DNA of 46,269 nucleotides from a virus, in IMG/VR virus record IMGVR_UViG_3300031857_000357, positions 1 to 46,269 of that record; one strand, 5' to 3'. Below are positions 23,585 to 27,879 of this stretch, in pieces. Position 1 is the first letter of the stretch. Every line of letters starts with the position of its first letter. A model generated the notes under the pieces. It searched no databases. It was given only the letters and a program-made list of their open reading frames with translations, and was not told the DNA's origin. The position numbers were made by a program, and so were the translations under genes.

Positions 23585-23878
23585 TTAGACTGTTACCGTT
23601 ACCGACCCAACGGACGCTGTCGCAGATTGCCCGGCGACATATGGGCTGTAGAGCAGCGGGACACGAAGCACTCCGCCCACCTGAAAGATCGTGCCGGGCT
23701 CCAAACCAGAATCGTTCGTAGCCAGATTCGTCAGCACAATCGTGGTCTGCCGCCCAAGGCCCGGTGCCTGAATGTAGGTCACAAGGCTGATCAGCGACCT
23801 GACCAGATCGTTGAAGTACAGTTGCTCGTATTGAGACGGAGCCCGCGGAAAGGTGGGCGGGATAAGACTCCTGTCCAT
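23585..23878 (-). CDS. Small phage protein downstream of the tail hub
   Basis: The 97-residue protein opens with MDRSLIPPTFPRAPSQYE, then an amphipathic helix (YFNDLVRSLISLVTYIQAPG). A beta-rich C-terminus follows with GTIFQVGGVLRVPLLYSPYV and a Ser/Thr/Val run. I know the N-terminal pattern from many environmental phages, where it sits beside the same large tail protein; the function is not known. Its start abuts the stop of the tail hub gene with one shared base, so it is probably a minor virion or assembly factor. Confidence 0.68.
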   Translation of the reverse strand: MDRSLIPPTFPRAPSQYEQLYFNDLVRSLISLVTYIQAPGLGRQTTIVLTNLATNDSGLEPGTIFQVGGVLRVPLLYSPYVAGQSATASVGSVTVTV

Positions 23879-25722
23879 CAGCGCCGTCCGTCTTGTTGGA
23901 TTTCAACGCGAGGAGAACCCAGCCGCCAACAGGTGCCGAGCCGGTTACTTTCCACGCGCAAGACGATTGAACGGCCGCGCAAGCGAATATCCTTGACCTG
24001 AGTGTATTGCTCAACAGGAACCGTCGCCGTGCGAACGATCTCAGAGTCCGAACCGTTTTGATAGTTAGACCCCGGATAATTCTGGGTCTTGATGATCATA
24101 TCGAGCTGCGGCGTGTTCGTGCTGTTGATGAACGTCACATCTGGAATGATGCGACGGACAAAGGAGAAGCGGTCGCCATCGCCGATATCAAGCGGAGAGC
24201 TTTCGATATAAGCGTTCAGGGGCGTCGACGGAGTCGTGCTCCCATCGTCCGTTCCAAACTCTTGGTTGTAGAGATAGTGGTCGGGGGAAGCACCAATGGG
24301 ATACTGACGCACGCCGTGGTCCAACCACGCGGTGCGGGCCATGTTGCCATAAGTCCAGACTTGCTCACGGTAATTGAAGGTCACATAGCGGTCGTTCTCC
24401 GACGAGCTTGCCGACGGATAGAACCACGTCACCTCGTTAAACTCAGAGTTCAAGCCTGCGTAGACTTTGTCGCGTTCGCTGAAGTTGAAGTCGTTAAAGA
24501 CATAATCCTTCAGCGGGCACTGCAACGGATCAGTCTTACCGGTGTAGACATAGAACTCCAGATCACCCATCCAGAACACAGTATCATCAATAGCAGCGGC
24601 GCTGTTGTACCCGTTGATGCTGATGTTGCTGGAGATCAACTGGATGCCAAAAGTGTACGGAGGGCCGATGTACTGCATTGAATACAAAGCGACTTCCGTG
24701 AAGACGAGGATCTCGCGCTTCGTTTCGACAGCATGAACAATGCTGCTGCCGCTGCCGAGGCGAAGATCGCCAGCGGTGTTCGTTGCAGTAGGCGTCCAAG
24801 TAAACGGGTCTTCCTGCGAACTGAAGCGGATGAGCAGTGGATCTTGGGCCGTGGACGAACCTTGGTTGGCCCCGAACGCAATCACATGGCGATCACGATC
24901 AGACACCAAGACTTGTGCTGCCAAGGTTGGAGTGCTGGGGTCCGTGGACAACGAGGCAAGCGTCACACCGCGCGTCGCATACCCCGCCGAAGCATCCCAG
25001 TAATACACGCCACCATTACGCACGTTGAAGATCAAGTCTTCGCCGTAATTGTCTTGAGACCACAGGCGCAGCGTGTTCGTGGCCGACAGACTAGCAGCAC
25101 TGCCCCACGTCCCACGGCCCCATGTGCCTGCGCCCCAACCAGTCCCACCGACCTGCGTGTCCAGACCGACGTTGATTTGATATGCCGCAGTCACCGTTCC
25201 ACCGTTTCCGGTGTCAGAAGAGTTTGCCGTCACAGCCACCGTGATGGTGTAGGTGTTCGCATCAACATAGGTAATTTCATACTCTTTATTCAGGACGGCC
25301 GCGGTGACATTGCCGCCAAGGGAGGTTGCCCCGCTGAAGGTGACGAAGTCGCCGTCCGTGCAGCCGTGAGCACTGTCTGTCACAGTAATGATCGAAGACC
25401 CATTTGTCGCGGCAAACGGATTCGTAAGCGTGACTGTCGAACGCAACGGGGTGATGTCGTTATAGGCCCCGCCGCGTTCAATGTAGTATTTAAGATTGGT
25501 TCCCATGCCGAGGATGTTGTCGCCGGATAGGGTGATCCAGTTTAGCATGGACCGGCAGGTGCCAAGGAACTGGGACGTAGAGTACTTGGCCCACCCACCG
25601 ATGCTTTGGGGAAACCCATACCGGAACCGGACGAGGTTAGAACTACGCCAGCCGCCTTCGTTCGTGTAACCCGTCAGGTCACGAACAACTCCGGGTCGGA
25701 ACTGAAGCTTTTGGAGGGGCAT
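23878..25722 (-). CDS. Tail hub / P22 gp10-like stabilisation protein
   Basis: The 614-residue, beta-rich protein begins MPLQKLQFRPGVVRDLTGYT, the hallmark start of a structural family in environmental podoviruses. Mid-protein there is an inserted Ig-like domain (about 98-180, Thr/Val/Gly rich). The rest has repeated strands ending in aromatic residues (for example DRYVTFNYREQVWTYGNMAR and SPDHYLYNQEFG), suggesting a beta-propeller as in P22 gp10, which closes the portal channel and connects to the tail needle. The assignment fits the P22-type neck proteins at 32-34 kb. The family call is from memory of the pattern and is moderately sure; virion function is quite sure. Confidence 0.78.
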   Translation of the reverse strand: MPLQKLQFRPGVVRDLTGYTNEGGWRSSNLVRFRYGFPQSIGGWAKYSTSQFLGTCRSMLNWITLSGDNILGMGTNLKYYIERGGAYNDITPLRSTVTLTNPFAATNGSSIITVTDSAHGCTDGDFVTFSGATSLGGNVTAAVLNKEYEITYVDANTYTITVAVTANSSDTGNGGTVTAAYQINVGLDTQVGGTGWGAGTWGRGTWGSAASLSATNTLRLWSQDNYGEDLIFNVRNGGVYYWDASAGYATRGVTLASLSTDPSTPTLAAQVLVSDRDRHVIAFGANQGSSTAQDPLLIRFSSQEDPFTWTPTATNTAGDLRLGSGSSIVHAVETKREILVFTEVALYSMQYIGPPYTFGIQLISSNISINGYNSAAAIDDTVFWMGDLEFYVYTGKTDPLQCPLKDYVFNDFNFSERDKVYAGLNSEFNEVTWFYPSASSSENDRYVTFNYREQVWTYGNMARTAWLDHGVRQYPIGASPDHYLYNQEFGTDDGSTTPSTPLNAYIESSPLDIGDGDRFSFVRRIIPDVTFINSTNTPQLDMIIKTQNYPGSNYQNGSDSEIVRTATVPVEQYTQVKDIRLRGRSIVLRVESNRLGTCWRLGSPRVEIQQDGRR

Positions 25723-25733
25723 GTCTGGCGTCC

Positions 25734-26678
25734 TCAGTTCAACTGTCGAAGGGCGGAAAGCGCAACTTCATCAAGGCCAATTAAGTGCCGAATAATACCT
25801 TCACTTTCATGCCAAGACAAAGGATCTATTTGTACGCCAATGCGTTTGGCGTCGTGGATAAAATCGGGGTCTTGGAACAAGGCATCGAACGCTAGGCGCA
25901 GTTTGGCAACGGCCTGTGGATCAGCAGATGGAGGAGCCACAAAAGCCCGGTAAGGGGCGGAGTACGATTCCAACAGGTCCAAGAGAAAGGACTGTCCGGG
26001 GAGGGCCAGTTCCGCCAACGTAACTACATCTGGGTAGTTGGGGTGCCGCACCCCTCCGTTTCCGTACTGGAGAACCACGTCGTACTTTGAGCGGTCTAAC
26101 AAATCCGGATCATTCGCCAGTCCCTCAAGACTACGATGGATGACGGTCAGCTCGTTTCGGCGAAAAGCCAGCAAGGTGTCGTTGATGCCCGCGTAACCTT
26201 CGACCAGTGTCATCTCAAGATTGCTGATGCGCTTGATCAAACGCAGGTTGCTGACCCCTGCCTCGGAGCCTGCAACCATCTTCTTCCGGTCGCGGTGGGC
26301 CACAAGAAGACGCGGTGACTTGCGACCGTCGGAGGCCGATCCCAGCCAGACCATGTTCCGCAGATCGTATCTGATGGAGGGAGAACCCACCGCCTGCAAA
26401 AGGATTGTAGGGGGATTGACGATGGCAATCTCGGAGCCGTCCGTCGGGGCCTTTTCAGACAGGTAGTTGAGTACGACCGCGCCGGATGCTCCGGGCAGAC
26501 TCTGCACATGGACCGTGGACCCCGGCAGGTGCTTTGGGAGATGGGACGCAACGAGTCGCGAAAACACAAAGAACGGCCCAGAGGTTGAGTGGACAAATAA
26601 CTTGATCTCTTTTGCCGTGGCTACAGACGAAGCCAACAGACAAACAGTCAAGATGCCATATCGACGGAAGAGGGCCAT
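25734..26678 (-). CDS. TctC/Bug-family periplasmic solute-binding protein
   Basis: The protein is about 314 residues. It has a Sec signal peptide: MALFRRYGILT, a hydrophobic core and ATA before KEIKLF. The mature part carries the TctC/Bug pattern: HLPKHLPGSTVHVQSLPGAS, then APTDGSEIAIVNPPTI, RYDLRNMVWLGSA and, near the end, FVAPPSADPQAVAKLRLAFD. Bug proteins bind carboxylates such as citrate in the periplasm for tripartite transporters; no transporter membrane gene is present here. I prefer ATG 26678 to the TTG at 26693. It overlaps the QueC-like gene by 31 bases. Such a gene in a phage tail cluster is unusual. It may assist host uptake, or have been recruited as a virion or exclusion factor. 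Confidence 0.82.
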   Translation of the reverse strand: MALFRRYGILTVCLLASSVATAKEIKLFVHSTSGPFFVFSRLVASHLPKHLPGSTVHVQSLPGASGAVVLNYLSEKAPTDGSEIAIVNPPTILLQAVGSPSIRYDLRNMVWLGSASDGRKSPRLLVAHRDRKKMVAGSEAGVSNLRLIKRISNLEMTLVEGYAGINDTLLAFRRNELTVIHRSLEGLANDPDLLDRSKYDVVLQYGNGGVRHPNYPDVVTLAELALPGQSFLLDLLESYSAPYRAFVAPPSADPQAVAKLRLAFDALFQDPDFIHDAKRIGVQIDPLSWHESEGIIRHLIGLDEVALSALRQLN

Positions 26679-27448
26679 GTAGGCATATCCCAAGTGGTTG
26701 GAAACACAGGACCTTCATATGTAGGCACATGGTACTTTAGCCAGTGCCTTGTAGGCCACCACTTGCCTTTAACCGCTGTGGCCTGCGCCATCCAATATGC
26801 AAAAGCTTGTTGAGGTGTTTCTCCCAACGAAAGGCGCTTGCGAAAGAACTCCCGTTTTGAGCACTTAAAGCACGTACCACACGGTTTATCGTCCGTAGGC
26901 TTTTCGCAAGAAAGCGTGAGGTCAAGGATATCTTGGGGGAGTTCGGCAAAAGCTTGAGATTGACAGTATTTTTGCTCCATCAAGGGTAACCAAAGCTTGC
27001 CGCGTTTAGCGGAAGCCCTGAAGATCTCCATGGCGGCAAAAAAACCGTGCGCCGAGCGACCAGCCATGCGGGAAGAGTGCCCCTCATTACCGTGCTCATA
27101 TGGGATTGCAAGAGCGTCATAGTCCCCTGCGTTGATGAGTGGCGTTATTTTTTCAACTAAATAACAGGATAAGGAAATGTTTTGTTGCCCATCCAGTTCT
27201 GGATAAGGGTCTTTGATTTGAAAGGTAAACGACCGCTCGGAGGACAACCGTTCAACAAGGCGAACCACCCGATCTAAGTCTGACTGTTTTCCGGCAGCAT
27301 AAGAGACGTTGGGATAAAATGGGCTAACAGGCTGGTACTTCTGAAGATCTAGGAAGACGGCAGTGATGTCGTCTTCCGTTTCGGAAAGGAAGCCCCACAA
27401 CAAATAGGTAGAGTCGAGACCGCCTGAAATTGGAAGAATTATCCTCAT
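26648..27448 (-). CDS. QueC-like PP-loop ATPase (7-cyano-7-deazaguanine synthase type)
   Basis: The 266-residue protein starts MRIILPISGGLDSTYLLWGF with the PP-loop SGGLDST (8-14). A zinc site near the C-terminus has C181-x8-C190-x2-C193-x2-C196 in CEKPTDDKPCGTCFKC, the Cys spacing of QueC. QueC converts 7-carboxy-7-deazaguanine to preQ0, the precursor of queuosine and of 7-deazaguanine DNA modifications used by phages against restriction. Other genes of the route (folE, queD, queE, a DNA transglycosylase) are not in this window. The middle of the protein is divergent, so the substrate may differ. It overlaps its neighbours on both sides. Confidence 0.78.
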   Translation of the reverse strand: MRIILPISGGLDSTYLLWGFLSETEDDITAVFLDLQKYQPVSPFYPNVSYAAGKQSDLDRVVRLVERLSSERSFTFQIKDPYPELDGQQNISLSCYLVEKITPLINAGDYDALAIPYEHGNEGHSSRMAGRSAHGFFAAMEIFRASAKRGKLWLPLMEQKYCQSQAFAELPQDILDLTLSCEKPTDDKPCGTCFKCSKREFFRKRLSLGETPQQAFAYWMAQATAVKGKWWPTRHWLKYHVPTYEGPVFPTTWDMPTWPSSVDMAS

Positions 27449-27879
27449 AGAGGGTCACCCTGTATCCACGACTGAGACGCTTCATCCCAAGTGTAGGAAT
27501 AACCGTCTTTGGGTTTTAGGACAGGCGCAAGCCACCGCCCTTCTGTTGGGCTGTATAACCAAGAGGGGTATGGCTGTGGTGGCATTGGCTGAACCCACGA
27601 GTGAGTTGCAGGGTCATAGGTCCAACCTTCGCCGGGAGATGGCGGGACAAACTGGTCGATGTTGGGCCAATACGAAAAACCAATGCCCGCATAGTTACCC
27701 CGGAAACTAGCGTTGTAGCTAGTCTGAAGCCAATTTGTGTCTTGTCCATACAATGATTGGCAAAATGCAATTCCCAGCGGTTCACTTTCTGGGAATGGCA
27801 AATTTGCCACAGAATCATTGCTAACAACGATCACCTCAAGAACGAGGTTGCTTGCATCCATTTTTGCAAAGTGTGCCAT
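27445..27879 (-). CDS. Tail-associated protein of marine-phage type
   Basis: The 144-residue protein starts MAHFAKMDASNLVLEVIVVS and contains WLQTSYNASFRGNYAGIGFS and three Trp-centred motifs of the form 'W.yd..t..W..P' near the C-terminus. The same set is widespread in cyanophages and other marine phages, usually next to tail-fibre genes and sometimes annotated as a fibre or assembly protein. The Trp motifs could bind glycans or the fibre tip. It lies just downstream of a Gly-rich fibre gene in the same operon. Function is inferred only from this context. Confidence 0.72.
   Translation of the reverse strand: MAHFAKMDASNLVLEVIVVSNDSVANLPFPESEPLGIAFCQSLYGQDTNWLQTSYNASFRGNYAGIGFSYWPNIDQFVPPSPGEGWTYDPATHSWVQPMPPQPYPSWLYSPTEGRWLAPVLKPKDGYSYTWDEASQSWIQGDPL

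Follow-up and report, generated by a model that had tools for sequence, protein, structure and literature searches.

The closest described counterparts of the protein analyzed here, which is encoded in a 46,269-base IMG/VR record of a virus of aquatic bacteria (the window), are the TctC/Bug proteins of tripartite tricarboxylate transporter (TTT) systems (BugD, Bug27, TphC, AdpC, and MatC; PF03401), a kind employed by bacteria for organic acid uptake, with which it shares a type II binding-protein fold, a signal peptide, and an orphan gene without permease genes. In TTT binding proteins, two waters are held on the ligand carboxylate by the loop P-F-x-A-G-G-x-x-D (PMC5812351, PMC8556258). Orphan expansions of these binding proteins are known, and their members may rely on common permeases or have a sensory role (PMC5994714, PMC5812351). 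Entries of the same fold from uncultured Caudovirales, automatically named 'PBP2_Bug_TTT' or 'Bordetella uptake protein', are present in BFVD/UniProt and are only 13–15% identical to the window protein; among the papers searched, none was found that dealt with these entries. Since such automatic labels on uncultured phage proteins exist, the presence of a Bug-type protein in phages is as such not new. The phage clade, its altered ligand motif, and the pairing with an enzyme gene presented below were not described in the papers searched, whose only related content was a tctA domain match on a viral contig of SUP05 and a gene for 'tricarboxylate transport' close to viral norB/nirK. A text match to 'tctc' in another paper proved to be a primer sequence and not a gene.

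Cyanophage PstS is generally assumed to use host permeases, and its likeness to the present case lies in a phage supplying the periplasmic binding component, which would rely on the permeases of the host. PstS and other phage-encoded periplasmic binding proteins are known in cyanophages (PMC6359870). However, PstS belongs to another family and ligand class, and the window TctC is set apart by its pairing with PP-loop ATPase genes and by its absence from the cultured phages searched.

The window features relevant to the analysis are as follows:

23878..25722, minus strand: virion structural protein (PHROG 3287, E 1.5e-71; relatives annotated 'phage stabilization protein'), downstream edge of the cassette, near the start of which the DNA alignment with contig L012 resumes
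25734..26678, minus strand: TctC/Bug-fold secreted solute-binding-like protein of 314 aa with a signal peptide at about residues 1–22, based on the open frame, the predicted fold, and the phage clade
26648..27448, minus strand: PP-loop ATPase ('QueC-like') of 266 aa with an SGGLDS motif and a PP-loop fold (PHROG 1550, E 1.8e-11), directly upstream of TctC with a 31-nt overlap
27445..27879, minus strand: PHROG 7759 protein, function unassigned (E 3.9e-37), the usual upstream neighbor in podovirus-type cassettes, found in the same order in L009, L010, L012, L088, L091, L107, L109, and L112
27889..29565, minus strand: glycine-rich fibre-like protein, upstream edge of the swapped cassette, from its sequence and the break points against L012
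100..816, plus strand: 2OG-Fe(II) oxygenase of subtype OG1, the one that follows TctCb in T4-like phages (PHROG 81, E 2.9e-22; OG1 profile, E 1.4e-76)

The TctC gene was found to be a single open frame of 314 codons on the minus strand, with the ATG at 26678 and the stop at 25734–25736, and stops occur throughout the plus strand of the same interval. The gene is thus intact and full-length, as an earlier sequence-only reading of the window had claimed, and a chance ORF was ruled out by the fold, the relatives, and the selection. The N-terminus (MALFRRYGILTVCLLASSVATA-KEIKLF) showed, by inspection, a Sec-type signal peptide with an A-x-A site, a signal peptide having been proposed in that reading, and a hydrophobic N-terminus with this site was likewise seen in the relatives. 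The placement between a tail hub and a QueC-like gene was also confirmed, the PHROG 3287 virion protein lying on one side and the PP-loop gene on the other. The same reading had described the gene as in frame with and overlapping late genes. The overlap holds for the QueC-like gene, within the last 31 nt of which TctC starts, but this start lies in a different frame; hence, 'in frame' was wrong, and the end of TctC is separated from the PHROG 3287 gene by a gap of 11 nt and does not overlap it.

The assignment to TctC/Bug is weak on sequence alone. The window protein scored 16.7 bits with the Pfam TctC model, below the gathering cut-off of 27; a PDB sequence search returned one chain, Bug27, at E 0.25; and the PHROGs contain no family for TctC proteins. 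The AF2 model, built from 36 aligned sequences (pLDDT 88.8, pTM 0.84), clearly predicts the TctC/Bug fold, a two-domain type II binding protein closest to the TTT proteins. The best 17 PDB structure matches of the model were all TTT solute-binding proteins (TM 0.60–0.71, E 1e-10 to 1e-13), including TBP, TphC, Polaromonas TctC, MatC, Bug27, AdpC/Rpa4515, BugE (2dvz), and BugD, and the next class of match appeared at E ∼1e-7. The TctC structural match, failure of which had been named as a reason to reject the family, was therefore found, and the family claim stands for the predicted fold, though the Pfam score stays under the cut-off. Homologues in alphaproteobacteria, Rhizobiales and others, showed 21–27% identity over the alignment, and the Pfam TctC cut-off was passed by five of the six scanned and failed by one. 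As the ligand-loop signature is absent, the window protein was filed as a divergent homologue of TctC/Bug (PF03401) and not as a classical member.

In place of the P-F-x-A-G-G-x-x-D signature, the window protein has H-S-T-S-G-P-F-F-V, in which the loop is cut to one Gly and the Asp position is occupied by Phe37. This Asp was conserved in all 32 bacterial homologues and in two of eight type-a phage proteins; it was found in none of the nine podovirus-type and none of the 26 type-b proteins (0/35 together). The phage protein further differs from TctC/Bug proteins in a deletion of the segment ahead of the GSxG loop, shared by the podovirus-type and most type-b proteins, and in a phage-specific D-x-R motif. 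Its residues D117 and R119 (window numbering, motif WLGS..DGR) occur in every one of the 35 proteins of the podovirus type and type b and are nearly absent in bacteria. With the loop Asp lost and an invariant Asp-x-Arg gained, the site looks remodelled rather than simply decayed, and for the same reasons the ligand is probably unlike those of ordinary Bug proteins. As the loop coordinating the carboxylate is altered, the protein need not bind an organic acid.

Alignment-based scans recovered the gene in at least nine podovirus-type contigs (L012, L010, L088, L090, L091, L107, L109, L112, and L002, a near-identical copy), and related TctC genes were found at about 30 further loci on T4-like contigs of up to 168 kb; these counts are lower bounds because the phage pattern scans were incomplete. 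The T4-like loci adjoin neck and terminase genes and are encoded, with metabolic genes, in the opposite orientation to the virion genes. One of these contigs, L153, has a terminase that was nearest to those of Sinorhizobium phages (57%) among cultured phages. The cultured phages searched held no relative of the podovirus, a, b, c, or d types of TctC, nor of a ∼400-aa PP-loop protein described below. A pattern scan of bacterial genomes with a single sequence gave no match, and an alignment of the phage copies was needed as the query. Among 289 genomes searched across the class at E 1e-70, no closer bacterial relative turned up, which shows only that none in that sample approached the scores of the phage copies.

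In a tree of 75 sequences, all phage copies (podovirus type, b, and a) were split by one branch (support 96/85) from 32 alphaproteobacterial homologues, a sample fetched with phage-derived patterns and hence biased. The window type was sister to T4-like type b (support 99/94), and the branch of the window protein (1.39) was the longest of its group. The three phage types thus appear to form a phage-specific clade. Close relative pairs of phage TctC gave dN/dS values of 0.06–0.14, indicating that the protein is maintained by purifying selection; the values come from relatives, the window protein itself being comparable only with one near-identical copy. The gene, therefore, has the features of a phage auxiliary metabolic gene, namely a cell-derived family, flanking virion genes, and selection in relatives. 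For passive cargo, which was to be recognized by absence from relatives together with degenerate binding loops, the outcome was mixed: the gene is present and under purifying selection in many relatives, and the canonical ligand loop has given way to another conserved motif.

Bug proteins normally serve membrane transporters, and the sequence-only reading had stated that these are absent here. In agreement with this, TctA (PF01970) was found neither in the whole window record nor in 13 other TctC-bearing virus records (14 in total, records that may be incomplete), and TctA/TctB had no match among 25 of the 32 families listed for the 40 other window ORFs. A complete TctABC system was not found, as no TctA was recognized alongside the window TctC. 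The scan of the 40 ORFs also recognized a Cpn10-type co-chaperonin, an AEP-TOTE primase domain, SNF2 and UvrD helicase domains, and a DnaA C-terminal HTH domain. In bacteria, two Beijerinckiaceae MAGs carried seven and nine TctA together with at least 142 TctC-type matches each, an imbalance that is in agreement with the published orphan expansions (PMC5994714).

The partner gene encodes a generic PP-loop ATPase fold, with LarE/ArgG/TtuA as its best structure matches. An identity as QueC (7-cyano-7-deazaguanine synthase) was rejected on the basis of this generic fold, a TIGR00364 score of 12.4 against 150.3 bits, and zinc-site cysteines that are not conserved among the partners. Apart from T4-like type b, 37 phage TctC genes (types a, c, d, and podovirus) were counted, of which 34 adjoin a PP-loop gene and the remaining three lie at contig ends. 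In 2000 shuffles within clusters, which keep the shared ancestry of the loci in place, the mean was 16.3 and the maximum 25 pairings. The podovirus TctC has the PP-loop gene as its immediate upstream neighbor. T4-like types c and d, both above the Pfam TctC cut-off, are preceded by another kind of PP-loop protein, which is ∼400 aa long, was recognized by an SGGSDS motif, and matched no Pfam family. The PP-loop/TctCd pair was inverted as one unit in L155, L157, L159, and L175. Two PP-loop families, four TctC types, and podoviruses as well as T4-like phages with differing layouts are thereby spanned. Since the same pairing recurs in unrelated viruses, TctC and the PP-loop enzyme probably work together, steering what the infected cell takes in. 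Tandem arrays of two to four PP-loop (QueC-like) paralogues were also noted in L131, L132, and L133, which are phage contigs without TctC. On the whole, the sequence-only reading was right about the Bug fold and the missing transporter but had overlooked the recurrent PP-loop pairing and the whole phage clade.

Podovirus-type relatives with visible flanks showed the order PHROG 7759, QueC-like gene, TctC, usually behind a fibre-like gene and on two very different backbones. The window and L012 are 74–80% identical in backbone DNA on both sides of the fibre-to-hub cassette, which itself does not align. The gene content of the cassette also varies: L006 has a hub 93% identical and lacks both TctC and the QueC-like gene, L009 lacks TctC, and L115 (4781–4840) bears the scar of an almost exact TctC deletion with the PP-loop gene left intact. 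Hence, the TctC/PP-loop pair is not obligatory. An extra gene of unassigned function, with the start MKI.F.PT...GRD(F/Y)PP.PMKK, was observed directly after TctC in L010 (7193–7927) and L091 (8893–9675). In L121 (8207–8927), most of the mature TctCb domain could not be aligned with that of L123; the signal peptide was kept, the flanks were 85–91% identical in DNA, and the two proteins were placed in different subclades of the tree. This looks like allele replacement by recombination, and it hints at selection for changing ligand specificity.

Type b TctC of T4-like phages is followed in most loci by one or two 2OG-Fe(II) oxygenases. The OG1 oxygenase was present in three of six TctC-bearing podovirus-type contigs and in none of nine relatives without TctC (exact p ∼0.04, post hoc, on incomplete contigs); the oxygenase link in podoviruses is weak, and that of the window OG1 gene to the window TctC is only suggestive. 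In L151, L153, L155, and other T4-like loci, a dense island beside the neck gene was seen to hold up to three TctC-type genes, with several PP-loop genes, 2OG-Fe(II) oxygenases, and a fatty-acid-hydroxylase gene.

For the role of the protein, we give an even chance to an accessory periplasmic solute-capture protein that would use a host permease and supply the PP-loop partner enzyme; the ligand, permease, enzyme link, and timing are what we infer. Infected cells would produce the TctC protein along with the PP-loop ATPase encoded upstream, and TctC, once secreted, would bind a small, probably anionic organic molecule in the periplasm. The bound solute would then be presented to a host membrane permease, e.g., one of the TctAB sets of the host, and the PP-loop enzyme may use or modify the imported compound, as might the adjacent 2-oxoglutarate/Fe(II) oxygenases in T4-like carriers. 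A host permease is proposed because TTT-rich bacteria typically have orphan binding proteins that share a small number of permeases. The capture and permease half of this mechanism follows from the family and the enzyme half from gene pairing only, against which it speaks that T4-like TctCb pairs with oxygenases and not with PP-loop genes. Among the three roles that the sequence-only reading had offered, enhanced uptake, here via a host permease, is the best supported.

The pairing could also reflect separate functions gathered in one recombination hot spot by the fibre and neck genes, with shared cassette ancestry behind it. Both genes lie in a spot rich in cargo, glycosyltransferases, methyltransferases, and oxygenases included, and this favours such chance neighbours, as do the ancestry shared by the loci and retained in the shuffles and the cases of L115, where TctC alone is lost, and L009, where it is missing. 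The recurrence of the adjacency across PP-loop families, TctC types, and phage layouts and the inversion of the PP-loop/TctCd pair as a unit argue against it, and we consider this explanation rather unlikely. A periplasmic sensor input or decoy, which would bind a metabolite and modulate a host sensor kinase or sequester a signal without feeding transport, has precedents in Bordetella BctC, needed for signaling through BctE, and in TTT binding proteins near histidine kinases (PMC5812351, PMC5994714). The changed ligand loop and phage records without a permease gene would fit it, but it leaves unexplained why TctC is repeatedly paired with a PP-loop enzyme of the cytosol, and no sensor gene was recognized in the loci listed; we regard it as improbable. 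The remaining two roles that had been offered were superinfection exclusion, with TctC acting from the periplasm to block a receptor or the entry of DNA, and a component of the particle. The position of the gene in the fibre/stabilization region and the swapping of TctCb alleles between close phages, as expected of a gene in conflict, would suit this pair, and nothing was found pointing to a superinfection block as such. A virion part is disfavoured because the protein bears a conserved signal peptide that directs it to the periplasm. The complete two-domain binding fold is kept along with this peptide, and the T4-like copies are grouped with metabolic genes and oriented opposite to the virion genes; both roles are thus considered highly improbable.

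Solute capture through a host permease for the PP-loop enzyme, the preferred reading, can be extended tentatively to a two-part phage system of which the papers searched gave no description and which remains somewhat doubtful. In this system, a remodelled secreted binding protein and a cytosolic PP-loop ATPase, often with 2OG-Fe(II) oxygenases, would be exchanged as a unit between unrelated aquatic podovirus-type and T4-like phages, and would import and chemically activate a specific metabolite during infection, the binding-protein alleles being swapped to change the ligand. The TctC genes of phages are a real family that is maintained and has been under-described. Aquatic phages have a clade of organic-solute binding proteins of their own, and in T4-like members up to three TctC-type genes share one island. 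Should the pairing be functional, these phages would steer the uptake of the infected cell and couple it to an ATP-dependent conversion.
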